Below, in pieces: positions 9,835-32,385 of a stretch of DNA of 34,238 bases (its first letter is position 1; each line of letters starts with the position of its first letter). The notes below the pieces were generated by a model. That model was not told where the DNA came from. It searched no databases and was given only the letters and a program-made list of their open reading frames with translations. The translations under genes were made by a program, and so were the position numbers. Source of the stretch: Planoprotostelium fungivorum (lineage: Eukaryota; Evosea; Variosea; Cavosteliida; Cavosteliaceae); the NCBI GenBank assembly GCA_003024175.1, contig MDYQ01000270.1:1-34238 (forward strand), written 5' to 3'.

Positions 9835-12800
9835 ATGCATACAGCACTATTCTACCTATTTCTACTCTGGTCCCTGGCATTGGGCGCATTTGTCAGCGAA
9901 CACCACAGGGAACTCATAGAGAAGAGCCTGAACGAAAAGGGAAGAGTCAAATTGCTTGTGACATACGCCGCCTCCTCCACCTTCTTCAATGAGCTCGGTC
10001 ACGCGGAAGCGACACCTCTATCGCGATTACAGATCGAACAACGCTGGTCCAAAGTGCAGCCCAAGATCTTGTCCATCAATAATGGGAAGAGAGCAGACGA
10101 GCCAGACATTGTCGTCCACCGAATCATGCAACAACTGATTCCAGTCGCTGTGGTCACCGCGACCAGAGAGGGATACCAACAACTCCTCAACTTGGAAGAC
10201 GTACAGAACATCGAGTACGACGGAAAAATGAAGTTGAACATGGCAGAAGCCACGGATATCACTGGAGCCAAGAATGTCAGAACACCTTCTCTCGGTGGAA
10301 ATACAAAGTCTGCATGATCGTTCCATTCTTCGTTGCTCATTTTACTTGCAGTTACGATGGAAGAGGATGGACCGTGGCCGTTTTAGACGATGGCTTCTCA
10401 TTAAGCAACCCTTTCCTTCAGAACAAAGCCGTAGGGGAAGCATGCTTCGCCGACGGTGAAGATACATTCTGCCCGAACGGTGATTCGTCTCAATCAGGTG
10501 CGCATCTTCCACCATCTCGGTGTCTCACTCGAAGGAAGGACCTGGCTCGGCCACACCTGGTGCCGGTGGAACTCACGGTACTCACGTGGCGGGGACTGTC
10601 TTAGGCAACACGACGGGGCTGCAAGGAATCGCTCCTGGTGCAACTCTTCTCGGTGTGAACGTGAGATTCATCACATCGAACGACGTGATCACATCACGTG
10701 TCTGACATCATCTTCAGATCTTCGGTATCTATCCCAACGGATCTGCGGGCGAGTACAACGCCTACAGCTCGCTGTTAGATGCTCTCATCTACGTCCACAA
10801 CCAGACGTTCTACCACAAGATCGCCGCCGTATCTCTATCCATCGGTTCTAGCCAGAGATATGACAACTATTGCGACAGATTCTTCACTTCGGTGAGTCGA
10901 TCATCTTCGAATACCGTACGATGATGCTGATGCGGATGATGCAGTTGACCACCGTGATGAGAGCGTTGAGACAGAGAGACGTTGCCATCGTCATTGCTGC
11001 CGGTAATTCTGGGTTTAAGAATGGTATCGCTTTCCCTGCTTGCATGAGGTGAAAGAATCATCACGATGATGAAAAGATGACGGCTGATCAGTATGGCCTT
11101 CGCCATCGGGGCTAGTAGTAAGGGAGACAACCCGGCCTCCTTCTCCAACAGTAACTTCATGGTCAAATTATTCGCACCTGGAGTCGACATTTATTCATCC
11201 ATAGACAGCACGAGATACGAATACTACAAGGGTGGGTCTTCATACACAAAATGGAAATTGCTGCAATTCACATTTATTTACAATGGTAGGTACCAGCATG
11301 GCCTGCCCTGTCGTCTCTGGCGCATTTGCANTCTGGATTTAAGAATGGTATCGCTTTCCCTGCTTGCATGAGGTGAAAATCATCAAGATGATGAAAAGAT
11401 GACGGTGGATCAGTATGGCTTTTGCCATCGGGGCTAGTAGTAAGGGAGACAACCCGGCCTCCTTCTCCAACAGTAACTTCATGGTCAAATTGTTCGCACC
11501 TGGAGTCGACATTTATTCATCCATAGACAGCACGAGATACGAATACTACAAGGGTGGGTCTTCATCCACAAGATTGAAATTGCTGCAATTCACATTCATT
11601 TACAATGGTAGGTACCAGCATGGCCTGTCCCGTCGTCTCTGGCGCATTTGCAGTCTACCGTTCCGTGTGTGAGTCCCAATTCTTTCAAATCAATCCACAT
11701 TTTATTCACTTTTAATCTCAGACGGAGCGACACCCACCTCAGATTCCATCCTCAAGAAATTTCAAGATACGGGCCGTCTCATTGTAGATCCAGGCAACGG
11801 AAGAACTTTTCCGAGAATCGACTTGGCCCGAGCTCTCTGGTCGAACACGTCGAGATGTGGCAACTCCGTTGTAGACGAAGGGGAGAGCTGTGACGATGGA
11901 AACTTGTACAGTGGAGACGGCTGCACGTCTCGCTGCGAGATCGAGCCCCTCTACTACAAGAACGGGACTTCTGTGTCGTTCAGAAATGATCTCGTCAGAC
12001 AGAACGAGAACATGGTATCCGTGAGAGCCAACAGCGTGGGGTCCATCTGGTGAGTGTNCCTCAGATTTCATCCTCAAGAAATTTCAAGATACAGGTCGTC
12101 TCATTGTAGATCCGGGAAATGGAAGAACTTTTCCAAGAATCGACCTGGCTCGAGCTCTCTGGTCGAACACGTCGAGATGTGGCAACTCCGTTGTAGACGA
12201 AGGGGAGAGCTGTGACGACGGAAACTTGTACAGTGGAGACGGCTGCACGTCTCGCTGCGAGATCGAGCCCCTCTACTACAAGAACGGGACTTCCGTGTCG
12301 TTCAGAACCGATCTAGTCAGACAGACCGAGAACATGGTATCTGCGAGAGCTAACAGCGTGGGGTCCATCTGGTGAGTGTAGTGATGATGAGACGACGTCA
12401 TGACCCAAGATAGGACGGCGAGGACGGAAGCAGGTGCGACCACTTTCACTCACAATTACAACCGAAACCCGAACGGAAACGAAGATCGTCTCAGCTTTTA
12501 CTACAACATGCCGGCCGCCAGCTTCAACACGACGCAGAGGTTGAGCTTGGAGTTTCAGATGTCCCTCTCCCTCTACGATCCCGCAGGCGGCAGAGGAAAT
12601 TGCGAGCAGGGTTTCTTTGTTGTGGTCAACGGGTGAGACCTCACGATAAACCGTCACGACCTCATCATCACCGCCATCGGCTGATCATGCAACAGACAAC
12701 CCGTCCAATCATCAGGTTTTCCTTACAACGGCAATCTGAACACAAATTCATCTCTGTCCGTACCCAACTTCCCAGGCGTACGAGCCTGGTGTGGTTTCTC

Positions 12801-13191: not shown

Positions 13192-16100
13192 TTATTGATA
13201 CATTCCGTAATCGTGAGGACGGAGGTCGGGGGAGAAACTGTACAAGTTTTCGTTGGTCTCCTTCTTTGTTGGTATCAGATTCTCCTTCCTGTGATGTGAT
13301 TCGATGTGATCTTGCAGTTCTCTGACGATGTCTTTACTCGTCATCCTGTCTTTCGCATCTGCTTTCCAGCTGCAGAAGGTCATCTCTTCGTTCGATGACG
13401 ATGATCTCACCATCTCTCGATGATCGAATTGTGCAGCTCTTCACCTTTGTTGTCTAATCTTCCACCCCCTGTCACGTATTCTCTGATCTATCGTTCGCGT
13501 CAGAACCATTCTAACGAATGAATTTGAAATACCTGTTGATCGGTCATGGCACCATAGGGCTCTTTACCATCCGATAAGACTTCCCTGATAGATTTGATCA
13601 GTAATTTGTTTCAATTCCAGCTCATACCAGAAGAGGACACCGAAGGACCAGATGTCAGAAGCATAGCTGTATTCTCCTTTCACCATGACTTCCGGTGCCT
13701 ATCAAGTTCAGCCATCCATCTCAATCATTTAAAGGTTCTCACGTTCCATCGCTGTTCACTGATGAATCGGCTCACAGCCTTCTTATTCGCCTTCATCGAT
13801 TCACCTTTATACGTGTCATTCTCCAGACGTGGAAGCTTGTGATGTGATATACGCACCGAATCCGGAGAGTTTGGCCGTATTACCTTTGATCAATACGTTT
13901 CTGGCCGCTACATCCGTGTGAATTATCTCGGCCGATTCGAGGTAAGACAAAGCCCTCGCGATTTGCAGCATTCTATCTTCACGTCAGTCTCTTTGTACAA
14001 CAACGAATTCATCACTCACATGTCGTAACGATGACTGATGACAAAGTCATTCGCGTCGACCAACTTTTGTCTCAGATTGTAATCCATCAATTCGAATAAG
14101 ATCCACGTGTCTCCACCATTATCGTTGAAGTGAGACAGATACTGCACCACGTTCGGATGATGTAGAGACTGGGCACATCAATCGAAATTGTAGATTGTCA
14201 TGTCACCTTCAGGTTCATCAACTCGTTCTGTAATTTCTTCGAATCTTTTGATCTCGTCTTCTTGACGGCCACGTGAGTTGTACCAGACTGCAAGCCTCTG
14301 TAGATAGTCGAGCTCTCTCCTTCTCCGATCTTCTCTTCTAACGTGACGAATTGCTGATGTTCTCGTCAATTCTATCCAATTCGATTCGATTTCAACTCAC
14401 GCTGGCATCCATGGTATCCAATGGAATATTTTCCATATTCGCCTGTTTTGTCTTCAGTTCGATACAATTTGGAGGAAAAAGTGATCACCTGTGCTGCAGA
14501 TCGCCTCTTTTTGAGAAGAATGAAGACAATTACTACCAGTACGGCGATCAAGAAAACGGACCCCACCACCACACCTGACGGTGTCATTTTCCTCCACGAA
14601 ATCTTCACTCACCGATGATAATTGGAACCATTGATGGAGAAGCAGCTCCATTGTCGGGCGCGACATTTCCTGGTCGTACGGGTGGACTTCCCACCGTGAA
14701 ATTCGTGAGATGATTGCAATTACAAGTGATGACGTAAGAAGTGTAGTTCCTCTCCGTTGAACACCCGTCGTCGCTCCAAAAGTGATTCGTCTCACTGTAA
14801 TACAGACACGAAACAGAGTCGAGTTGTTCTCTCGAAGTCAAACCGCTGGTGGGAATGACAATGGTAATATTCTCCTTCGAATCGGACACCTGCCACCAAT
14901 CAATCAAATATCATAGTGATGAATGATCACCTCTACGATGTTGCCATTGGCATCCGTGATGGTGAGGCCGTAGATGGAGGCCGATAGATTCTCCGGAGCT
15001 TTGACGGAGAAATTTCCACTATTGTAAGCGTATTCCATGAATACGACAAGAGCAGGTGGTGTCTGCTGATTTTCCGCCCTCGTTGTCTTCAGATCTTCCA
15101 AGAGTGACAGGCTGATCGACGCGGTAGCTGGGGTTATCTTATCTCCTCCCTGCGTAGTATTTGTCGACGTCGACACTTGGATCTGTACGATGGAGGTTGA
15201 GTTCAGCGTAGGTCTTGTGGTGTCGTAAGCGGTGAGGGAGAGAGAAGGTGCAGTGATGCTGATGGGATTGGATGATGTCTTGTTCGAGAACAGCTGTGAC
15301 ACTGTGTTGTAGATGACTTCTGTGGATACAGTCTTGTTAGGTGCGGCGATGTGCTGTATGGTCTGATTGGCTTGTCCATCAGAGATGGGAGAAGGAGGGG
15401 GAGGCACGGTTGTAGATGGAGTGGAGGTCGTAGAGGATGCCACTGATGAGGTAGAGGAGGTGTAAGTGGATGTGAAGGATCTCGTCGTGGTGGATGATGT
15501 TGTTGATGTGGTAGAGGATGTTGTTGATGTGGTAGAGGATGTTGTTGATGTGGTAGAGGATGTTGTTGATGTGGTGGATGAATATGTTGGAATCAGCTTT
15601 GTCGTGGATGTGGTAGGAGCTGCACTCGATGTCATTGCAGCTGAATCCGTCACAGAAGATGGTTCTGAGGGAATACCTACAGGTCCACCCGTCACAGAAT
15701 ATGGAATTGGCACTTTCGAGGTAGTCGTGCTCGACGAACAAGGTGATCCACAGCTGAACTGACTCGTGCTCCCGCAGTTGTCGAGATAGACTTGACTCGA
15801 TTTACCCGATGTCATCAGGCGACAGTACGCGTCCCCATTATCTGTGAGCAGTGAACTGCCCGGATCATCTAAATCGACGGACGGCCTTGTAGAGTTGTTG
15901 GGGCTGATCGTGAAGCTGGTCGAATACAATGAATGGGCACCTGTATCGATCAACGTCTCTCGAGAGGATCTTTACACTCACCGGCGTGAAGGAGGACTAA
16001 AGATTGTGCCTGCGATTGATAATCACCGTAAATGATACAATCAAGAAAGGAAGTCGTTCCGTTCGATTCGATGGCGTGAACGTTACCAGTAGATAATTTA

Positions 16101-17702
16101 GCGAATGTGAAATTGGATCGGGTGAAAGATCCACCAGAGGTAGTCAGTTTTACCACTGTGGAAGATCAGAGAGAAATAAAAGGAATTCCATTCACGTAAA
16201 ATCTTGGCATTTCCACCCTTGAAAGAAGAATCGGCGATGTCAGCCCTCCCAGCAGACACGATGACTGATTCATTCAGAAGATTAAATAAATTTGCCTCAC
16301 CGTCTGCGCTAGATCCTTCAAATTGGCATCTTTGAATGAGAACGTCATCCGCTTGGATCAGATTGCCTGACCCCACAGCGTTACTGGTGAAGCCACAATC
16401 AGAAACTTCCATCTGATTTGAACCCAAATATGAGATCAAGGGTTGCTGATTCGATGTGAATTGACATTGGTAGACGGTCACAGATTTCCAGCCGTTGAGA
16501 ATGACAGAACCGTCGCTCGCTCGATTGTCCGTGAAATTAGAATATTCGACGGACAACTGACTCCAGGTCTCTGCATCATGTCATTCAATGATGGATCGTG
16601 ATGATGACGGTGACTCACTCAACAAGGGTCCCACATTCGAAGCGATGACTGAAGTATCCAGCGAGGCAATAGAAGTTAAGATAGCACCCTGACTCAAGAA
16701 GGTATTATCGGTTATATTCAAACGGAGCAACTGAGCGATTCCGGCATTGATCACGTGACCTGAACAGCTGACGTTCCTGAATAGACTGTCGGTCACTTTC
16801 ACCAGATTGACTGCGACTGATGTCCTTCAGCTACATACATATCGCAATCTCACATATGACATCGTTCATGGATGTCGTGTCTGAGACGTCGATCACTTCG
16901 ACTTGATGCAAGATAACAGAGTTCTGACCGTAGAGGAAGGGATTGCGGCTGAGGTCTCCTGTGAAGGTGGCCAGGCTGACGCGGATGACTCGATACCCAG
17001 AATCATCGAGATGATTATCCAGATAAGAAGAGATGAATTGAGAGGGTGTATCTCCGGCGAGGACGGTGATGTTGTGACTGTTTGTTGTGATGCCCGATCG
17101 AATGAGGGTCACTTGACTCAGAATGACTTCACCACTGACGATCAAGAACGTGTCCTCCATGATGGTACTGGTCACAGTCAAGCCTGATGAAGTCAGCGGA
17201 GATCGTGAGAAGGGACTCATTACTCGATTCGTAATTGGGTTCCCATTTGAAACCATTGAGATGGCTTCTTGTAAAGGTGAAGGAAGTAGTAATACTATCT
17301 GATGATAGGCTACCAGATGTGATATTGAAATAGACGAAGGAGACCTAAAGATGATGAGCGGACGGAACATCGGATCGTAATGCACTTCACTTTTGAAATG
17401 TTTGTGAGTTTCAGATTGACGGTGGCGGGGGTGAACGGCGGCAGTAACCTGACGATGAGGTTGAGGGGGTCTTGGCCCGTCCAGTGCAACTCAACGAAGG
17501 CGGTTTCAAACAGAGGAGCGGATATCTCCACGGAAGTTTCATTGAGTGGGATTGCATTGAACGCTGTGAGGATCAACCTTCGTTGCATCTTCTTCCCACC
17601 GTCTATAAATCCAATGGCGGAGGAGTGAACCCAAGAGCCAGCGGATGGAGTGGAGTAGATCAAAACGAGACAGAAGAACCAAAGAGGTGTGTCCATCTTC
17701 AT
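13192..17702 (-). CDS. Beta-helix / mucin / GAIN-GPS receptor with tyrosine-kinase-like pseudokinase (paralog 1)
   Basis: A single-pass surface receptor of well over 1,000 residues. Order: signal peptide from ATG 17702 (MKMDTPLWFFCLVLIYSTPS); beta-helix-like repeats (VEYSNFTDNRASDGSVIL, VSDCGFTSNAVGSG); a Ser/Thr mucin stalk; a GAIN-like region from about 15390; a GPS motif with paired Cys, Trp and CNCNHLTNF, predicted cut between Leu and Thr codons at 14707/14706; a membrane helix (VVVGSVFLIAVLVVIVFILL, then KKRR); and the kinase domain. The kinase has a Gly loop (GEGESSTIYRG), the Lys of VAVKK, Glu in NELMNL, HTDVAARN in place of HRD, SGFG in place of DFG (codon 13861-13863), QRWNAPEVM, SDIWSFGVLFWEV and RCWKADAKDR. 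Loss of the DFG Asp predicts weak or no catalysis. At least 15 introns. The stop is 13192-13194. GAIN/GPS on a kinase is unusual (see findings). Confidence 0.85.
14698..14724 (-). other. GPS autoproteolysis motif (paralog 1)
   Basis: The codons read Cys-Asn-Cys-Asn-His-Leu-Thr-Asn-Phe. In adhesion GPCRs and polycystin-1 the bond between His-Leu and Thr is cut by the GAIN domain itself. The preceding Cys and Trp residues of the motif (SCLYYSETNHFWSDDGC) are also present. Confidence 0.85.
15181..15390. repeat. Near-identical tract shared with 29132-29341
   Basis: These 210 bp at the start of the GAIN-like region match 29132-29341 with only three visible mismatches and no indel. Coding on both sides is clearly diverged between the two paralogs. 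The encoded peptide begins SDGQANQTIQHIAAPNK. Confidence 0.9.
15496..15579. repeat. 21-bp minisatellite in mucin stalk (paralog 1)
   Basis: There are four head-to-tail copies of a 21-bp unit (gatgttgttgatgtggtaga plus g on the plus strand); the last is slightly altered. On the coding strand each encodes a seven-residue Ser/Thr block (STTSTTS type), so copy changes alter stalk length without shifting frame. Confidence 0.9.
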
Positions 17703-18858: not shown

Positions 18859-21602
18859 CTATTCTACATCCAACATGGGAGCCCCAGCCTCCACCACTTC
18901 TCCCTCTTTCACAAAGTAAACAACTTTTCCGTCCTTCTTGGCTGAGATCTTGCTCTCCATCTTCATACTCTCCTGTCCTCCAGTCAATCGTGCTGCGGTG
19001 CTGATGTGATGCGATCACTATGACATACCATCGTCAACAGAGCTTGTCCTTTTTTGACGCTGTCTCCCGCTTTGTAGATCAGTTTGATGACCTTTCCTGG
19101 CATTGGCGAAGTGTATTCTGTGCCTTCCACTGCATCCTCTGCTTTCGAGTACAGGCGATTGTGTTTGTAGAGGAGAAAGGCTCCGAGCTGATCCGAATGT
19201 ACGTGATACGTCTCTGAATGGGCTGTAGAAGAGTCAACGATTATCGACATGGTGATGATGGCGATGATGATGACGATCCTTTCATGTCACCTGGATGAAT
19301 GATTGTGAATTTGCGAGTGAGGCCGTCGATGCTGATGGCAATCTCCTCCTCTGAAGCAGAAACGAGATGACAACGGTACGATCTGTTTTCAGAGCCCACG
19401 ACGGAGATGATGAAATGCTGATCACCTGATGCGTGTCATCATGACATCGCACGAAGACGTCTCGACGTTCACCCTTCACTTCGTACTCTAACGTCTGCAT
19501 CTGACCTTTCCCTGAACTTTCTGTGCCGAGGATGGTCCTCTGTTTCGAATACGGATTGTTTCTGAATCCGCTTCTCACCTGATTCAAAATTTAAAAATCC
19601 CGCCAAAATTCTTCTTCCTCTCACTTGTCTCAGAAATTTCCTCTCCCTCTCCCTCTCACTCCAACTGAACAGCGTCACAGCGATCAAAACCGGGTCAGGC
19701 ACTCCATTTTTTTCTGTCTTCAGATCGTTCGCACGTTCTTCTAAGAAGTGAGTGTTGATCATTCCACTGTTGAAACGAGGATGTTTCAATATGCTGACGA
19801 GGTACTCTCTGTTCGTATTGACACCGATGGCGACGGTGTGTTGCAGTGCTTTGATCAATAAGGATGTGGCCTCTTGACGATCACTACCGTGTGATATGAT
19901 CTTGCAGAGCATTGGATCGTAATAGATGCTGATGCGACTACCTGCACGAGTTCGATTCCCGGTCACGGCATATTTTTTCACCTCGTTCTACACCCGAATC
20001 GTATCGAATTCCTTGGCAAGGATGAGCAGACCAGGCCAGGAGTTTTCCGATGGAGGGAACAAAGTTTTGATCCTCTGCATACAGTCTACTCATCACATTA
20101 GAACTCATGATCGTGATCATCATCACGGTGATCGTGATCATCATCACGGTCATCGTGATGATGTGTACTGATCGATCACCTGACTTCGATGGAATGACCG
20201 TGGAGAGTGGGTGGGACAGTCAAGCCGAGAGACGTCAGAGATCTTCCAGATGCGATCTTGATCTGTAGATCCACCAGATCCAATCCGGTCACCATCTCCG
20301 TGACAGGGTGTTCCACCTCGATCGATATCAGAACGTCTTCTCTCCCATCGATCATCATCGACTTCGATCGTGATGCGATGATGATCGTGATGATGATCAT
20401 GATGGCTCACTTGTAGTCTGGTGTTGACTTCTAAGAAGTAGAATTGTTCGGTAGCTCGACCATTCTCCTCGTTGACCACGATGAACTCGACAGTACCCGC
20501 GTTGTAGTATCCGATCATTCTTCCAATCTTCACTGCGGCCTTAGACATCTTCGTTCTCAAATTTGCTGTGATGAACGAACAAGGGCTCTCCTCTACCACC
20601 TGACGAGATGAATATTTGTCCATCTACAACGATGTAGATGGTCACCTTCTGGTGACGTCTCTGAACTGTACACTCTCTCTCGCCTAGGCAGGTGATGTTG
20701 CCATGGTGATCGCCAAATATCTGCATCTCGACGTGTCTAACGTTGGGAAAATATCTGAGAAGAGTTAGCGTTGTAGATGGTCAGATGTACCTCTCCAACA
20801 GCAGGGAGCCGTCTCCGAACGAATTGACGGCCTCGGATCTCGCAGATGCGATCGCATCTCTCAGATCGCTCGAACCCCTGGCTATTCTCATTCCCTTGCC
20901 GCCTGTACGGGTCATCTACAACGAGCCAGATCGATCGAACTCACCTCCACCGGCTGAAGCTTTCACCAACAGGGGAAAACCGATTCGATTTCCTTCTTCG
21001 AAGAGACGATCATCGTCCTGCTCGATCCCATTATAACCCGGAATGAGGGGAACGGAGTCGTCTTTCGAATGAATGAGATCTTTCGCCGCTCTCTTCGATC
21101 CCATCACATCTAATTGTGAATCAGATGAAAGATGTGTTGGATGTTACGATGGTGATGTAGGTTGTTGTGACGAACCTATCGAATGAGGGGAGGGGCCTAC
21201 GAATAAGATGCCATTATCTTTGCAAGCTTCGGCAAACTTGGCGTTCTCTGATAGAAAACCGTATCCTTCGAAGAGTGAGCGTTACATTTACACACAAGGA
21301 CAAACAGTGGAACAGATATACATACCTGGATGTATGGCATCGGCGCCTACCGCTTTTGCAGCTCGTATGATCTCTTCTATGAGGAGATAAGAAGAAGATG
21401 CCTCTGAGCTGGTTCCAATCAATATGGCCTCATCTGATTCTTTGACGAATGGTGCGTCAGCGTCTTCTATCGAATGAACGGCAACAGTGCTGATGCCAAG
21501 ACGTCTACATGTTTGGAAGATCCTCCTTGCAATCTCGCCACGATTGGCAACCAATAATTTGTGTACACGTCGAATCGACTCTTCTCTTTGGTCAACTTGC
21601 AT
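18859..21602 (-). CDS. Biotin-dependent carboxylase alpha subunit, methylcrotonoyl-CoA carboxylase type
   Basis: Carries biotin carboxylase and biotin carrier functions; the MCC alpha subunit serves mitochondrial leucine breakdown. From ATG 21602: [20 protein letters not shown], then [12 protein letters not shown], the ATP-grasp glycine loop [46 protein letters not shown] and [13 protein letters not shown]. These are the full biotin carboxylase landmarks in order. The linker region is diverged ([20 protein letters not shown]). The carrier domain has [21 protein letters not shown] and the biotin-accepting Lys in ESMKMES. Stop 18859-18861 follows [15 protein letters not shown] resembles MCC alpha more than propionyl-CoA carboxylase, but the alternative stays open. 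No mitochondrial presequence is obvious at this start; an upstream exon may be missed. Introns include unusual repeat-rich ones at about 20085-20170 and 20325-20410. Confidence 0.85.
20109..20150. repeat. Two perfect 21-bp repeats inside an intron
   Basis: The unit gatcgtgatcatcatcacgg plus t occurs twice head-to-tail at 20109-20129 and 20130-20150, inside an intron of the carboxylase gene. It contains GATC and TGATCA palindromes, and the flanks continue with related GATGATC/ATCATC words. Confidence 0.85.
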
Positions 21603-24430: not shown

Positions 24431-27167
24431 ATGAGGTCACTCTTGTTCCTGTGTCTTCTCTTGGCCTTCGCTCAGGCGGGCCGATTGGCCCCTCACTATC
24501 ATAAGTCTCACGGATGGGTCATCTCTGAGGCCGCCGATGTCGAAGATGTCGTTCGTATCGGTTTCGGACCCAAGGTCAGTCTTCCCATTTGATGATGGAA
24601 GACGTATCTGATGTCGATTGACAGGAGTCCGCCGAGTCCATCAAGTTGGCTGACACCGTTCTCGAGTCGATTTCAGATCCCGCCTCCCCTCAGTTTGGAA
24701 GGCACTTGACTGCTGAAGAGATCCACAGGACCTTCGGTAATGTCGCCGCTCTCAACAAGGTCAAATCGTATCTCGATTCACACGGTAATCCATCCCATTT
24801 CCACTTGCCTTGGTCACTCGATTGATCATCTTCTCACAGGCATCGAATACACCGTCAGTGGAGATCACGCCTGGGCTGAGGTTCCAGTCCACAAGTTGCA
24901 GAAGATGTTGAACACCAAGTTCTTCAGACACACCCACCCCAATGCAGGAAGCCAGATCGCCGTTCGTGCTCAGTCATACAACATCCCAGACGAGGTGAGA
25001 CATCATCTCCCCTCACCATCTCACACGATGAACAGTTGGAGGATCACATCGCCATCATCTACGGAGTGGTTCACTTTCCCCACATCAGAAAGACAAAGAT
25101 GAACATCCAGCCCACCTTCTTCCAAGACATGACCCCCTCCAAGCTGCAACAAGTCTACCACGGTGAGCCCTCCCCTCCATCATCGTCACATCTGATGCGC
25201 TGTTGCAGTTCCAAATGTCCTCATCCAGAACTCATCTCAATCGCAAGTCATCTTGTCTGCCAGCAGCGGTTACATTCCATCAGATCTGTCCAAGTTCTTT
25301 CAAGTCACTGGCTCCGCCCTCAACGTCCTCGGCCTCAACTATCCTCTCGTCTTGAAGGGTCCCAACCAGACTGCAGACGTGAGACTTTTATTGTATTTTA
25401 ATCGCGCTGAATTGGGACAGTGCCTGCACCAGGATTGTGGGGAGTCCACTCTCGACGTGAGTTGATCGCCATCGTGATCATCATCATGATCGTCATCATG
25501 ATCATCATCTGACGGTGTCATCACAGTTGGAGTACATCATGGCTATGGCCCCTGGTATCAAGACTTACATCTTCAACACGCGTGGTGATGGTTTCTCTGA
25601 GCTCCCCAACTGGTTAGCCACAGACAACAACGCTCCTTTCGTAGCTTCCGCTTCTCTCGGTATCGGACTCGATTCAGTGAGCGATCATCATCATCACACG
25701 ATCAAGTCTCGACACGATCATCATCACACGATCACAATCATCATCACACGATCACAATCATCATCACACGATCACGATCGTCATCATCGTTGGAATGACA
25801 TACGTTCAGGACTACGCCCACAGACAATGCGCTATGGTTCAGAAGGCTGCCCTGCGTGGTGTCTCCTTCTTCGTTGCCAGTGGTGACTCTGGAGGTCTCA
25901 ACGATGACTGTTCTGCACAGACCGATTACCCCAGTGGATGTCCTTACATGATCTCCATCGGAGGTACCGATGGCAGCAACGACAACCGTCAAGAGGCAGC
26001 GTGGCAGTATGGAGGTGTTGGAAACGCCGCAAACATCTTCCCTCAGCCAGATTGGCAGAGTGAGTGTCTTCATGACGATGCTGCTGCTGATCATGATGAT
26101 GATCTGATGATGATCATCGATCATCGTGTGAGTCGATCGAGTCAACTCACATCGATAACAGAGCCTTACGCCGCCGCCTACCGCAACTCGAACCCCTCCG
26201 GCATCAACGTCGGAAACTTCAACTGGAACTCGCGTCTGTACCCCGATTTCGCCGCCCACGCCGGTGGTACCATGCTCATCTTCCAGGGCAAGCAGAGCGG
26301 AGCTATGGGAACCTCTTTCGCTTCCCCCATCTTCGCCGGAATCATCTCTCAGATCAACCACCAGAGAGCCCTCATTGGAAAAGGTCCGGTCGGTCTACTC
26401 AACCAACTCATCGCCAAGTTAAACAGCAACGGTACGTGTGATGACGTGTGATGACGTGTGATGAGGTACTGATGACGTCACAGGGGGTAGCGTGTTCAAA
26501 GATATTACGACGGGAAGCTCTCAGGGAGGAAAGTGTGGAAAAGTTCCCGCCACAACTGGATGGGATCTGGCCACTGGATTCGGTGCACCCGAATACAACT
26601 CCCTCTACAACGCTCTCGTCAAGGGTGATCACAACGCTTTCGTTACAGATCAATATTGAAACACACACATCATGATGAAGAAGTGATGACTGATTCGGTG
26701 CAGGTGCTGATCCCACGAACAAGCCCACACCTACCACTTCACCCGTCTACACCAAGACCGCCACCTACACCTACACCGCCGTCGGCACCCACACCATCAC
26801 CGCAAACTCTCCAGCCGGCTGCGACAATTCCATCGGTTCAGAGTTGACCTCTCCCAACCAGATCACTTCGAACGGAAAATTCGTGACCTCCCCCGACTGC
26901 AAGCTCCACCTCGTCCAGCAGCCGGACGGTAACGTAGTCATCTACAACGAGAATCAGCAGGCTCGGTGGGCTACGAACGGATTTGGAGACGCTCCACACC
27001 GTCTGGCCATGCAGGACGATGGAAATTTAGTTTCTTACAGCAAGAACGGCGTCAACTGGGCGTCGAACACTCAGTTTGCCGGGCAGGGACCTTACAAGTT
27101 GGTCCTCACCAACGAGGGAAAGCTTTCCATCGTCGATTCGAACGGACAGACCACCTGGAACAACTGA
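24431..27167 (+). CDS. Sedolisin (S53) protease fused to a bulb-type lectin domain
   Basis: A secreted or lysosomal acid serine peptidase of the tripeptidyl-peptidase/sedolisin family. ATG 24431 starts the signal peptide (MRSLLFLCLLLAFAQAGRLA). The pro-domain is visible (SPQFGRHLTAEEIHRTF, EYTVSGDHAWAEVPV). The catalytic Glu and Asp lie in GESTLDLEYIMAMAP, the oxyanion Asp in VASGDSGG and the nucleophile Ser in GAMGTSFASPIFAGI; VFKDITTGS near the end fits the calcium site. A Thr/Pro linker (NKPTPTTSPVYTKT) leads to a C-terminal bulb-type (mannose-binding, comitin-like) lectin domain with QPDGNVVIY and QDDGNLVSY, followed by a degenerate third motif (TNEGKLSIVD). Stop 27165-27167. At least eight introns, two of them rich in GATCATCATC repeats. 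It is convergent with the second receptor gene, 71 bp between stops. Confidence 0.88.
25683..25790. repeat. GATCATCATCACAC tandem repeats in an intron
   Basis: An intron of the sedolisin gene is filled with irregular copies of atcatcatcacacgatcac. A related intron lies at about 25460-25528 (gatcatcatcatgatcgtca). They resemble the repeats at 20109-20150. Coding exons on both sides are intact. Confidence 0.85.
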
Positions 27168-27238: not shown

Positions 27239-30200
27239 TCATTCGGAGAGGTCGAGTTTGGACGAAGATTGGATGCGGGATTGTAGTTCTGCGACAATGT
27301 CGCGGCTTGTCGTTCTCTCTCTTGGATCTGCCTTCCAACTGTTGTCGTTGAGTATGAAGACAGATGGTGACGATGACACACCATCTGCGCATGAGGACGT
27401 TGTGAGTCTCAAAACCCTTGCTGACCAGTCTTCCTCCTCCTGTCACATATTCTTCGATCTATCGATAGTCAGAAACACATCGAGAGGATACGATTTTCAT
27501 CATCTCAATAGAGACACACCTCTTGTTCACTCATGTAACCGTAGGGTATCTGTCCGTAGTTCATGACTTCCCTGTTGTCGGTCAGCCAATGATTGAATGG
27601 AAAGATGTTGTCAACTACCAGAAGAGAACACCAAAGGACCAGATGTCAGATGCGAAGCTGTACTCTCTTCTCTTCATCACCTCGGGTGCCTATGATTCAT
27701 CACTTTTCATTGATCACGGACTGTGACTCACATTCCATCGTCGGCTGATCTCTTTCACGCTCTCGTCTGGCTTCTGTCCGCTCATCATCGCGTGTCCTTC
27801 GCTCGTCAGTCCCACATAGTGAAGACGATCACGCACCAAAGCCGGATAATTTAGCTGTATCTCCCTTCATCAACACGTTTCTGGCTGATACCTCTGTGTG
27901 GATGATATCAGCTGATTCTAGATAAGATAATGCTTTTGCTATATGCAGCATTCCTATCGTCACATCAGTTTTAGATGAGGATGATACAATTCACATGTCG
28001 TATCGGTCTTCTAGGGGGAAATCTGCTGCTGTGGTCGCAATGAGCTTATCCTTCAGATTATATTGCATCAGCTCGTACAATATCCATGTATCTCCACTGA
28101 TGTCGTTGAAGTGTGACAGATACTGCACCACGTTCGGATGATGTAACGTCTGATCGTCATTCAGCGTAATAATGATAGTAAGGTAGACGTCACCTTGATG
28201 AGCGACACTTGGTTGCGCAACGCTTTCGCATCCATCTTCGACTTTTTCTTGACAGCCACGTGAGTCGTGCCAGACTGCAAGGCTTTGTAGACAGTGGAAT
28301 GCTCTCCTTGACCTATCTTGTCTTCTAACGTCACATATAGCTGAAGCCACCGTCATCTCTCCGTCTCTATGATTTCGAACTCACACTCGCATCGAGAGGG
28401 TCCAATGAAAGATCGTGCGTACCGGATTGCACTCTCGATCTCCTTCTTTTAAAGACAATGAGTGCGATGATGACCACAATAACAATCAATACGACCGATC
28501 CCACAACGACACCTATTCCGATCAGATTATGTCTTCCTTAAAGTCCTCCTTACCGATGATGACGATGATGAATGACGATGAAGGAGGATTGATAACGCTG
28601 TTTGCATCCTCGACGAATTGTCTCTTAGTGAGTGTACCGACGGTGAAGTTGGTGAGATGATTACACATGCAAGTGATGACGTAGCCGGTGAAATTGCGCT
28701 CCGTGAAACACCCATCATTCTCCCACGTATAATTTGTCTCGTTGTAGTACAGACAAGACACAGCCATCAGCTCTTCGACAGAAGAGATACCTCTCGTCGG
28801 GATTACGATACTGATGTTCTCCTTCGAATTCGACACCTGTCACGATCGTGTCATTTTGACGTATCGTTAACATTCTTTCACCTCCAACAAATTGCCATTG
28901 GCATCCGTGATGGAGAGTCCGTATACTGTTGCGAATCGAATTGGTGCAGCTGCGGTGGAGAAATTTCCACTGTCGTAATCGTATTGCATGAACACCACGA
29001 GAGCTGGGGCACTCTGTCCCTCTTCTCGTCTCTTCTTGGTGAGGGAATTCAAGAGTGATACACTGATGCCAGCTATCGCTTTCACTGCTCTCGCCCGTTC
29101 TGTGCTGTCCCTTGGAGCTTCACCCACTTGAATCTGCACGATGGAGGTAGAGTTCAGCGTAGGTCTTGTGGTGTCGTAAGCGGTGAGGGAGAGAGAAGGT
29201 GCAGTGATGCTGATGGGATTGGATGATGTCTTGTTCGAGAACAGCTGTGACACTGTGTTGTAGATGACTTCTGTGGATACAGTCTTGTTAGGTGCGGCGA
29301 TGTGCTGTATGGTCTGATTGGCTTGTCCATCTGAGATGGGAGGAGGGAGACTGATTGTTGCAGATGGAGTGGATGTGGTGGAGGACATCGTAGATGACGT
29401 AGAATCGGGGAGAGAGGACGAGGTCGATGTCGAGGAGGATATTGGTATGGTGGATGATGTTGTTGATGTGGTAGAGGATGTTGTTGATGTGGTAGAGGAT
29501 GTTGTTGATGTGGTAGAGAATGTTGTTGATGTGGTAGAGGATGTTGTTGTTGGAATCGCATCCAATGTCGTTGAAGATGATGGCTTTGAGGATGCGGTGG
29601 AGGGTGTTGTCGATGCGATTGCGGATGTCGACGATGGTATAGAGGATGTTGTTGATGTGGTAGATGTAGTCGTCGACGATGTTGTTGATGTGGTGGGAGG
29701 CATCGTAGATGTGGTGAAAGGTGTTGTCGATACGCCTGAACTCGTACTCGATGTACTTGAGATTGTGCTCAATTCGCCCGAATATGATACCAGGAGACTC
29801 GTACTTGTACTCGATCTACTTGAACTTGTACTCGATGTACTTGAACTTGTACTTGATGTGATTGTACTGGTAATCGATGTACTTGAACTTGTACTCGATG
29901 TGATTGAACTGGTAATCGATGTACTTGAAATTAGACTCGATGCGCTTATGCTTGCGCTGGAGCTGATACTTGATGGGAAAATGCTTGTGCTGGAGCTGAT
30001 ACTGGATGGACTTGAGGATGATAGTGATCCAATTGTACTTGAACTTGGTGTGTCTGCACTAGTACTCGGTGCGCTTGAATTCATGCTGGATATGTCTGAG
30101 GATGTGACCGATACACTTGCAATTGCATCCGATGAGTCTGTCGGTGTGCTCAAAATGGTGCTCGATGAGATAGTGGTCGACATCGATGTTGTAGGACTTG

Positions 30201-32385
30201 ATTGGATGCTAGTAATAGGCATCGTAGCAGCTGTGGTAGAACTCGTTGTAGGCGGTAGAGCTGAACAATTGTTTGTCTCACAACTGTAGTATTCCTCCAT
30301 GACACAGCTGGAATACGAGATGAAGGATGAGATATTATCATGCAGAGAGCAGTAGATGGAACCGTCATCCACAGTCAAAGAATTGGTTGCGTTGGAAGTT
30401 GAGATGAGTGGGCTAGCTGTCGCATTGAACTGCGAGCGAGAGATCTTGTGATAGCCTTGGAGACAAGTCAACGACGGGATGGTACGTCTGACACGCACCA
30501 TAGTTGAGAACGATGAGAGGTGAGCTCCCCGTGAAGATACAATGATCTATCGTCATGTTGCCTGATGCGATGAGGGAGGAGACAGAGCCGTTCATATCTC
30601 GTGTGAAATTCGAGTTGGTGATGATTCCTCCTCGTGAAGTGAAAATAGCTGAATGATGTCAGACGTTAATCGATCCAGTGATGAATGGGTCTGTATGCAA
30701 ATTCACCAGCAGATCCAGATCGTTCACTGAAAGAACTTCCATCGATTGTGACCTCTCTCGCGAAGATATTGACTGGTTGTAGATCAATCTCCAACTTCCA
30801 CTCCTACACTCACAAGGATTTCCCAGGTTCTGTGAAAACATCGAGTTGTAGATGCCCATCGACCCAGTGATCTGCAGGAGAGTCCGTGACGACCGCATGT
30901 TGTACGACACATGACAGTTCGTCAAATTGACGTCTGACAAGGTGGTGATCAGCGGTGCTAGATTACCGATGAAGGTACTGCCGGCGACTGATATCTCACT
31001 CGTCGCCATGACGACGGTCGAGTTGGAATGCCCACCATTCGTATCGAAATTTCCACGGAATGTACAACCGACCAGATTCATCGCCCCTCCGTCTAGCCTC
31101 TTTCAGTCGTGACGTCGCAGGAGATATCTCACTTAGGATGGAGCCATAGACGCCCAATCGGTTGTAGAAGAACGATGTATCGGACACGATCATGCTGATG
31201 GAGCTGATCAGACCCACCGAAGATGACGGCGAGTCACAAAAGTTGTTAATGAAAGAGGATCCATTGATGTAGATGGAATTGGTACCGGAGATGAGGTCTG
31301 GACTGAGTCAGGTTTGACTAGTTGTATGTGGATGATCACCCGATCCGGTCACCCGGCAAGTATCGAAGGTAGTCCTATAGATGGACAGTGAGGATGATCG
31401 GATGAGGAACTGGCTGCAGGTGACATTCGTAAAGTGAGAATATCGAATGGTCAATTGTTGGAAGTTTCCTGAGACTACATTCAGATCGTGTGTGATGATC
31501 ACCCATAGATTATCACCAAAGATGTCTTTTTGAAGCGCATTTGCATTGGCAAAGATCACGTTCTCGAACAAACCAGAAGAGCCTGAGTAGCCGGGACTGG
31601 CTGATGCGGACACCCCCTGGATGAAGGAGTTCCGGATCTTGAGGAGGCCAAATGCAGATGAGATACGAATCATCAAAGGTAGATGATTGGATGAATAGTC
31701 CTCGACTGAGAACGTGAAGTCCTGACTGTTTGAAATGGACATTGCACAGTGACACATTGCACCGTGGCACGAGTGATGTGCCAGTTAGAGACGTGTTGGT
31801 AATGCTGACACCTGTGTCTTGTTAAATGTTGAAATTGTGTATATCTGACCTGAACAATAGAAGTTGGTGGAGGGGAACGAGACGTTGGATAGTGATGAAT
31901 CGACAAAGTTCAGTGCTGGAGTGATTCCGGGTAACAATGAGAGAGTTAGAGAACTCAGTGAAGACGAGGAGAATGTAAGATTCAGTGCGTCCGTAGTGAG
32001 GACTCCTCCATAAAGAAGAAAGTTTTTGAAGGTGAGCTGAGGGATTTAGTCCTGATCAGAATGAGACTGAGATTCACTTGTGTGATGTTGATGAATTCTG
32101 TGTTGCCCAGCGACATACGTGCATCATTAGGCGCAGAAGTCAGAAGTGTGAGAGATAAACTCTGACTACCACTCCAGTTGAATGCAGATGAACTGAACGA
32201 TTGAGATTGGATGATCGCTTCAGAACAATTCGGCTGGATGCTTCTGAATGCTACCATGGTCAGTCCTCATTCTGACCCTTCTCATGCTCCTCACCATCTT
32301 GAAAACTTGCCGTGCTCGAATAAGGACCACAGCTTACGCCCCACACGAGAGGAATTAGAGAGAGGACAATCCAACAGAGGCTCAT
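27239..32385 (-). CDS. Beta-helix / mucin / GAIN-GPS receptor with degenerate kinase (paralog 2)
   Basis: Paralog of the receptor at 13192-17702, same order of parts. ATG 32385 begins a signal peptide (MSLCWIVLSLIPLVWGVSCG). The beta-helix-like ectodomain includes LTIRYSHFTNVTCSQFLI and VAGSTFIGNLAPLI. The Ser/Thr stalk is much longer than in paralog 1 (about 29340-30250). The GAIN-like region ends in the GPS motif (NYTWENDGC, CMCNHLTNF), then a membrane helix (VVVGSVVLIVIVVIIALIVF) and KRRR. The kinase keeps GQGEHSTVYKA and the VAVKK Lys. It has Gln at the alpha-C Glu position (28209-28211), HTEVSARN with Glu replacing the HRD Asp (27892-27894), and SGFG replacing DFG (27841-27843). RRWN, APEVM, SDIWSFGVLFW and RCWKADPRERTTS remain. 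It is almost certainly a pseudokinase. Stop 27239-27241. Confidence 0.84.
28645..28671 (-). other. GPS autoproteolysis motif (paralog 2)
   Basis: The codons read Cys-Met-Cys-Asn-His-Leu-Thr-Asn-Phe, with the predicted cut between the Leu (28654-28656) and Thr (28651-28653) codons. The upstream Cys-Leu-Tyr-Tyr and Trp positions of the motif are retained as in paralog 1. Confidence 0.85.
29132..29341. repeat. Near-identical tract shared with 15181-15390
   Basis: The second member of the 210-bp pair, offset 13,951 bp, same orientation. Outside it the proteins are clearly different, for example STSTNTTQGGDK versus GEAPRDSTERAR on the GPS side. Confidence 0.9.
29456..29539. repeat. 21-bp minisatellite in mucin stalk (paralog 2)
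   Basis: Four copies of the same 21-bp unit as at 15496-15579. Beyond them (to about 30250) the stalk has further degenerate Ser/Thr codon repeats. The opposite strand is left open as a long Val/Asp frame, which is a by-product of the codon pattern. Confidence 0.9.

Follow-up and report, generated by a model that had tools for sequence, protein, structure and literature searches.

Repeated loss of catalytic aspartates in a family of GAIN-GPS receptors with tyrosine-kinase-like domains in Planoprotostelium fungivorum

The window analysed here, a stretch of 34,238 nucleotides, is contig C226 of the 36.9 Mb, 471-contig assembly of Planoprotostelium fungivorum (Amoebozoa, Variosea), and it carries on its minus strand two paralogous genes, P1 and P2. 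Both have a signal-peptide-like start, a beta-helix-like ectodomain, a Ser/Thr-rich stalk, a GAIN domain with its GPS motif, one transmembrane (TM) helix and a tyrosine kinase (TK)-like domain. They belong to a large family. Most of the copies examined lack one of the catalytic aspartates or both, through repeated and independent losses, and purifying selection maintains the kinase fold, the Lys-Glu pair and even the motifs in their degenerate form. Judging from sequence, we favour, with a probability of about 0.6, the reading that members of the P1/P2 family are single-helix GAIN receptors whose TK-fold pseudokinase would signal without phosphotransfer. P2 is either a recently broken copy or the carrier of an assembly error.

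GAIN-GPS receptors with kinase-like domains in P. fungivorum

The kinase-like part of P1 was matched by the Pfam profile PK_Tyr with 177.8 bits (3.2e-52; gathering cut-off 23.1), and that of P2 by PK_Tyr in the C-lobe (125.5 bits, 3e-36; same cut-off) and by Pkinase in the N-lobe (35.3 bits, 2.3e-10). P1 reads VAVK, alphaC Glu, HTDVAARN and SGFG (K/E/HTD/GFG), and P2 reads VAVK, alphaC Gln, HTEVSARN and SGFG (K/Q/HTE/GFG). A preliminary description of this DNA had P1 altered only at the DFG Asp, which is indeed Gly; however, the HRD Arg is replaced by Thr and the third Gly of the GxGxxG loop by Ser, in P1 as in P2, so that neither 'only' nor an intact Gly loop stands. Its other readings of the motifs hold, namely, for P2, Glu in place of the HRD Asp, Gln in place of the alphaC Glu and the exons with APE and SDIWSFG, and, for both genes, the VAVK Lys. 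An active kinase is defined by its beta3 Lys together with the aspartates of HRD and DFG; of these, the DFG Asp is missing from P1 and both aspartates from P2. As a single-TM protein with a TK fold and at least one catalytic residue gone, P1 can be classed as a putative receptor tyrosine pseudokinase, and P2 likewise only when its broken reading frame is disregarded. No alternative HRD or DFG exon was found in three-frame reads of P1 and P2, and the two genes share their exon structure with the subfamily of P1.

The extracellular part identifies both proteins as GAIN-domain receptors, since PF01825 scored above its gathering cut-off and the HL/T tripeptide is present in P1 and P2 alike. Upstream of the GPS, sequence homology to GAIN-B was found with profile A2, built from nine relatives other than P1 and P2, which matched ADGRG6 (best, 1.2e-12) and ADGRG1 over 120-150 positions. 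Hydropathy showed a single, strongly hydrophobic segment separating the GPS from the kinase in 13 of 14 proteins, among them P0130, the NCBI model of P2, with P1 outside this check and the P0003 model as the exception; thus, where an adhesion G protein-coupled receptor (GPCR) has seven TM helices after the GPS, these proteins have a single one followed by kinase-like exons. Structure comparison of the predicted P0001 model (mean predicted local distance difference test score 58, seven sequences) by Foldseek and VIA-align gave lists filled by kinases. The beta-helix call for P2 was made by eye from its repeats and its likeness to P0001.

A profile search of the genome yielded at least 150 GPS motifs; every one listed passed the Pfam cut-off, and several are clustered (for example C1, C58, C196 and C351). 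We read the DNA at 70 of these loci (L009-L078, the 50 best and 20 lower-ranked) as well as at P1 and P2, and scored the kinase part by position-specific spliced alignment with a profile of 253 columns anchored on the kinase domain of P1. This profile gave 827 for P1 and 698 for P2, whereas none of 37 negative stretches, made up of 7 pieces of the window and 30 reversed loci, scored above 55. Run on eight ordinary kinases, it recovered the HRD Asp in all 7 that were called and the DFG Asp in all 8. A kinase-like domain scoring above 250 was found at 67 of the 70 GPS loci; of the three exceptions, L011 and L046 are located at the ends of contigs, and L029 reached a score of 152. Therefore, among the loci read, a GPS almost always means a kinase-like domain. 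For a further 12 loci (L079-L086, L088, L091-L093) the kinase part only was read; the set L079-L093 was chosen by likeness to P1, which biases the sample toward intact members.

The comparison of the K, E, HRD and DFG positions across paralogues, which the preliminary description had proposed, was made on the 79 loci for which 175 or more of the 253 columns were covered. Seven loci below this threshold were left out, and so was L052, which overlaps L044 in one gene (both are counted in the 67 of 70); the 79 hold 77 distinct sequences, because L019/L020 and L031/L032 are identical in their kinase codons. The HRD Asp is retained in 10 of 78 called and absent in 68, the DFG Asp is retained in 8 of 65 called, and both are present in just 3/79: L081 (HTD/DFG), L088 (HCD/DYG) and L091 (HGD/DFS). 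L092 and L093 each retain one Asp and are uncalled in the other column. The beta3 Lys (60/70) and the alphaC Glu (63/75) persist in most loci, together in 58 of 70, and Arg occupies the HRD position at none of the 79.

A divergent subgroup (L010, L013-L016, L018, L022-L024, L030-L032) has DNI, DYR or DID at the HRD place and keeps PPE/APE and VWxFG, its degenerate motifs looking conserved within the subgroup; in L031 and L032 an Asp stands in the HRD-Asp column with the His replaced by Asp. Similar degeneracy occurs in an ENA protein, P0029, where EGF-like domains and a hydrophobic stretch accompany a kinase-like domain with VHTKLCSRH and SGF.

The altered domains are under purifying selection. 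Over 15 pairs, each locus being used once, the pooled ratio of nonsynonymous to synonymous substitution rates (dN/dS) was 0.31, with a range of 0.25-0.37 when the pairs were bootstrapped. For the individual segments, given without bootstrap, dN/dS was 0.25 for the N-lobe and 0.35 for the C-lobe, and, at a finer scale, 0.16 for the catalytic loop, 0.18 for the DFG segment, 0.78 for the activation segment, which is the least kept, 0.15 from APE to the F-helix and 0.39 for the last part. Since the degenerate motif segments have such low values, the altered motifs are conserved in their altered form. The preliminary description is supported in its large GAIN/GPS kinase-like family with selectively maintained degenerate domains, although not in its series leading from P1 to P2.

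The broken reading frame of P2

The start codon of P2 at 32385 and its stop at 27239 were verified, but the frame between them is interrupted within the kinase part. At the junction CGACAT/gtgaat..cgatag/GAATGC two bases precede the ATG, which puts the HTE/GFG exon out of the N-lobe frame; in P1 and nine relatives, that is, in 10 of 10 other loci where the junction was seen (5 of the 16 checked loci gave no view of it), one base precedes ATG or GTG. The spliced aligner places a +1 frameshift at the same junction, and P0130 runs into the same intron and stops after ...LEDRYDM. By eye, no other splice site around 27995-27953 restores the frame, and retention of the intron leads to a stop, as in P0130. 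Because of this two-base acceptor after a phase-2 donor, P2 as assembled is unable to encode one protein with both kinase lobes and could at most be an N-lobe-only receptor. With the frame broken in both the assembly and the NCBI model, P2 is not usable as a functional end point. P0130 is annotated as a hemagluttinin motif-containing protein, and its stalk region uses a frame different from the Ser/Thr-rich open frame at 28867-30546.

The break must be recent or an assembly error, since the downstream exons are open and dN/dS between P2 and its sister in the tree, L083, is 0.20 (dS 1.11). That the assembly is at fault, and that the gene encodes a full-length pseudokinase receptor with K/Q/HTE/GFG, is a serious possibility, though we lean away from it: the open C-lobe exons with GT-AG sites and the P2-L083 ratio speak for it, as do two places on the same contig where near-identical copies of about 322 bases are joined by a single N, whereas the extra base is absent from all ten relatives with the junction in view and the NCBI model, although built on the same assembly, stops at the same point.

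Ancestry, order of losses and competing explanations

Among the matches listed by protein searches, five EukProt transcripts with the same architecture (P0004, P0006, P0121, P0123 and P0124) have HxD, where x is not Arg, together with DFG, and a sixth, P0008, has YGN/GFG. As 5/6 relatives are thus catalytically complete by motif, activity is probably ancestral, and the family probably descends from a receptor kinase that was active and of the non-RD type.

An alternative is that P1-type members, with HTD kept and GFG, are atypical active kinases, cation-free or preferring Mn2+ in the manner of CASK or plant ILK1. For these members it is the strongest rival, and it is not without grounds: P1, L082, L084 and L087 retain the Asp and Asn of the HRD place together with GFG or GFV, plant ILK1 (GFG, from the non-RD, HCD-bearing ILKs) phosphorylates with Mn2+ (PMC9403797; papers are cited throughout from excerpts of their text), and CASK is active without cations in spite of its absent DFG Asp (PMC4718504). 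But the HRD Asp itself is missing from most of the loci scored, including close relatives of P1 with HTN, HTR or HTQ, so that a second mechanism would be needed, and we consider atypical activity unlikely.

The order of the losses was followed on a tree of 20 sequences, from which the nine motif columns and the poorly aligned P0008 were left out and which was rooted on the five intact EukProt proteins. A P. fungivorum subfamily of 13 members including P1 was recovered with support 98, and the nodes among the outgroups and L045 with 41-67. Parsimony over the 20 sequences required six losses of the HRD Asp and five of the DFG Asp, and five and three, respectively, in the 13-member subfamily, without L045 and P0125. 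The stepwise loss from P1 to P2 proposed in the preliminary description, with P1 as an early and P2 as a later step, would find some backing in the six sequences grouped with P1 and P2 (support 49), all with Gly at the DFG Asp place and variable at the HRD Asp, since DFG loss may therefore have come first there. However, the sister of P2 is L083 (HTR/GFG, support 97) and not P1, whose own sister is L087 (HTD/GFG, support 100); L079 (HTE/DFG) and L068 (HCN/DFG) followed the reverse order, having lost the HRD Asp and kept DFG; and the frame of P2 is broken. As sisters differ and L079 and L068 run the other way, the losses are parallel without a fixed order, and the series, which we regard as improbable, is rejected. 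That the kinase-like domains are functionless, decaying pseudogenes is more improbable still, and plain decay is rejected for the family, since against frameshifts in 9/75 loci, in-frame stops in 3/75 and two to three frameshifts in L087 stand the pooled dN/dS of 0.31, the degenerate motif segments being among the best conserved, and a dN/dS below 1 in 67 of the 69 pairs (partly overlapping) that have dS 0.03-1.2.

Several points weigh against the reading of the family as pseudokinase receptors. Given the same frameshifts and stops, P2 may not be the only dead copy; 14/79 loci have no call in the DFG column; and, counting L092 and L093, up to 5 loci could hold both aspartates. P1 and the other members that retain the HRD Asp could still have activity. 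In the pairs L019/L020 and L031/L032 the identical kinase codons lie on different contigs; these loci are either copies of very recent origin or the same sequence assembled twice, and the number of GPS motifs in the assembly may accordingly be somewhat too high. Finally, dN/dS was computed on spliced alignments of our own making.

If the family does consist of pseudokinase receptors, a variable ectodomain would be joined, through a GAIN domain with an intact HL/T tripeptide and one TM helix, to the TK-fold domain. The GAIN domain would cut itself at HL/T during synthesis, for which there is a parallel in the GAIN domain of ADGRE2, which self-cleaves when placed on the single-pass PDGFR helix (PMC12488864). 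A putative ectodomain ligand, or force, would then expose or re-orient the membrane-proximal stub, and the pseudokinase would relay the signal inward without phosphotransfer, either as a scaffold or by pairing with and activating a candidate partner, which might be another kinase or a sibling that is active. Tentatively, and with less confidence than for the family as such, the amoeba may possess a repertoire of more than 100 GAIN single-pass pseudokinase receptors with exchanged ectodomains (beta-helix, leucine-rich repeat, Kelch), acting as allosteric partners of a few complete siblings (e.g. L081, L088 and L091). Were this so, the trigger of adhesion GPCRs would work without seven TM helices and, in most chains, without catalysis, by way of many independent losses from one active ancestor.

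Positions of P1, P2 and their parts in the window
Feature	Positions	Strand	Details
P2: signal peptide, beta-helix-like ectodomain, Ser/Thr-rich stalk, GAIN/GPS, TM helix, TK-like exons	27239..32385	-	frame of the kinase part broken
P2 GPS motif	28639..28758	-	CMCNHLTNFTVG; HL/T tripeptide; PF01825 33.4 bits
P2 TM helix and juxtamembrane exon	28385..28512	-	exon reading; hydropathy on P0130
P2 kinase N-lobe exon	28194..28340	-	GxGxxS loop; VAVK Lys 28250-28248; alphaC Gln 28211-28209
P2 post-alphaC exon	27995..28149	-	ends RYD at phase-2 donor; last exon in the N-lobe frame
P2 broken junction	27952..27994	-	intron 27994-27954; acceptor leaves two bases (27953-27952) before ATG, not one
P2 catalytic-loop remnant exon	27837..27953	-	HTEVSARN; Glu 27894-27892; GFG Gly 27843-27841
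P2 other C-lobe exons	27239..27796	-	27796-27732, 27689-27619, 27571-27520, 27458-27382, 27338-27239; open, GT-AG sites
P1, paralogue of P2 with the same architecture	13192..17702	-	11 in-frame exons from GPS to stop; start (17702) and ectodomain exons by eye
P1 GPS motif	14692..14811	-	CNCNHLTNFTVG; PF01825 37.9 bits
P1 kinase-like exons	13192..14353	-	K 14263-14261; alphaC E 14224-14222; HTD Asp 13914-13912; GFG Gly 13863-13861
Identical 182 bases in P1 GAIN exon	15199..15380	-	common to P2 29331-29150; within a 79%-identical alignment

P1 and P2 are separated by a dS of 1.68, and the 182 bases identical in their GAIN exons are probably the product of recent gene conversion. Elsewhere in the window, two tandem pairs of the near-identical copies of about 322 bases lie at 11008-11656 and 11737-12379, with a single N at positions 11331 and 12058, where the copies meet. 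They fall within a protease-like gene that by eye resembles subtilisin; as the joins look like unmerged contig ends, this gene is probably an assembly artefact there. Short tandem repeats rich in ATCATGATC-like units occur at 20108-20159, 25463-25509 and 25687-25786, within or beside neighbouring genes.

Comparison with known receptors and pseudokinases

On the intracellular side the family resembles the receptor tyrosine pseudokinases of animals (HER3, EphA10, EphB6, ROR1/2, PTK7, RYK and STYK1), which are likewise single-pass with a TK fold lacking catalytic residues; in a published table EphA10 carries GFG and HER3 carries HRN, and the word GAIN is absent from the excerpted text (PMC13259870). 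They differ from the amoeba family in number, humans having eight members, compared with the roughly 80 loci read in this one amoeba, and in that the HRD Arg is gone even from the catalytically complete members of the amoeba. None of these animal receptors is known to have a GPS. On the extracellular side, GAIN-B and GPS homology and HL/T are shared with adhesion GPCRs, which have seven TM helices in place of one TM helix and a kinase-like domain.

Plant ILKs resemble the amoeba family in their GFG for DFG and non-RD (HCD) motif (PMC9403797), and CASK in its absent DFG Asp (PMC4718504). Both ILK1 and CASK differ, in the excerpts, by their measured activity. Neither is known as a receptor of this architecture. 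Fusion of a membrane receptor to a kinase in a unicellular eukaryote is also found in the GPCR-TKL/K and GPCR-TK proteins of choanoflagellates, although these carry seven TM helices (PMC12716839). Within Amoebozoa, the receptor tyrosine kinases of Physarum likewise combine a single TM helix with a TK domain; 29 candidates yielded four that were kept with the full tyrosine-kinase consensus, and the word GPS is absent from the excerpted text (PMC4758236). A survey of Amoebozoa family-2 GPCRs that included P. fungivorum detected, according to its excerpt, no GAIN domains in them (PMC10445921), which fits the placement of GAIN in another receptor class here.

Each module is known already, and their combination in a large family is apparently new: GAIN, one helix and a mostly inactive-looking TK domain were not found together as such a family in the literature searched, although the genome paper of the species and a pseudokinase survey, outside that coverage, may mention the genes. 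The family offers natural cases of catalysis lost several times in parallel, to be compared with its active relatives, and makes two questions testable: whether GAIN release can signal by way of one helix, and what is retained of a kinase fold after catalysis has gone. It unites GAIN self-cleavage and receptor pseudokinases, hitherto separate modules, in one unicellular lineage.

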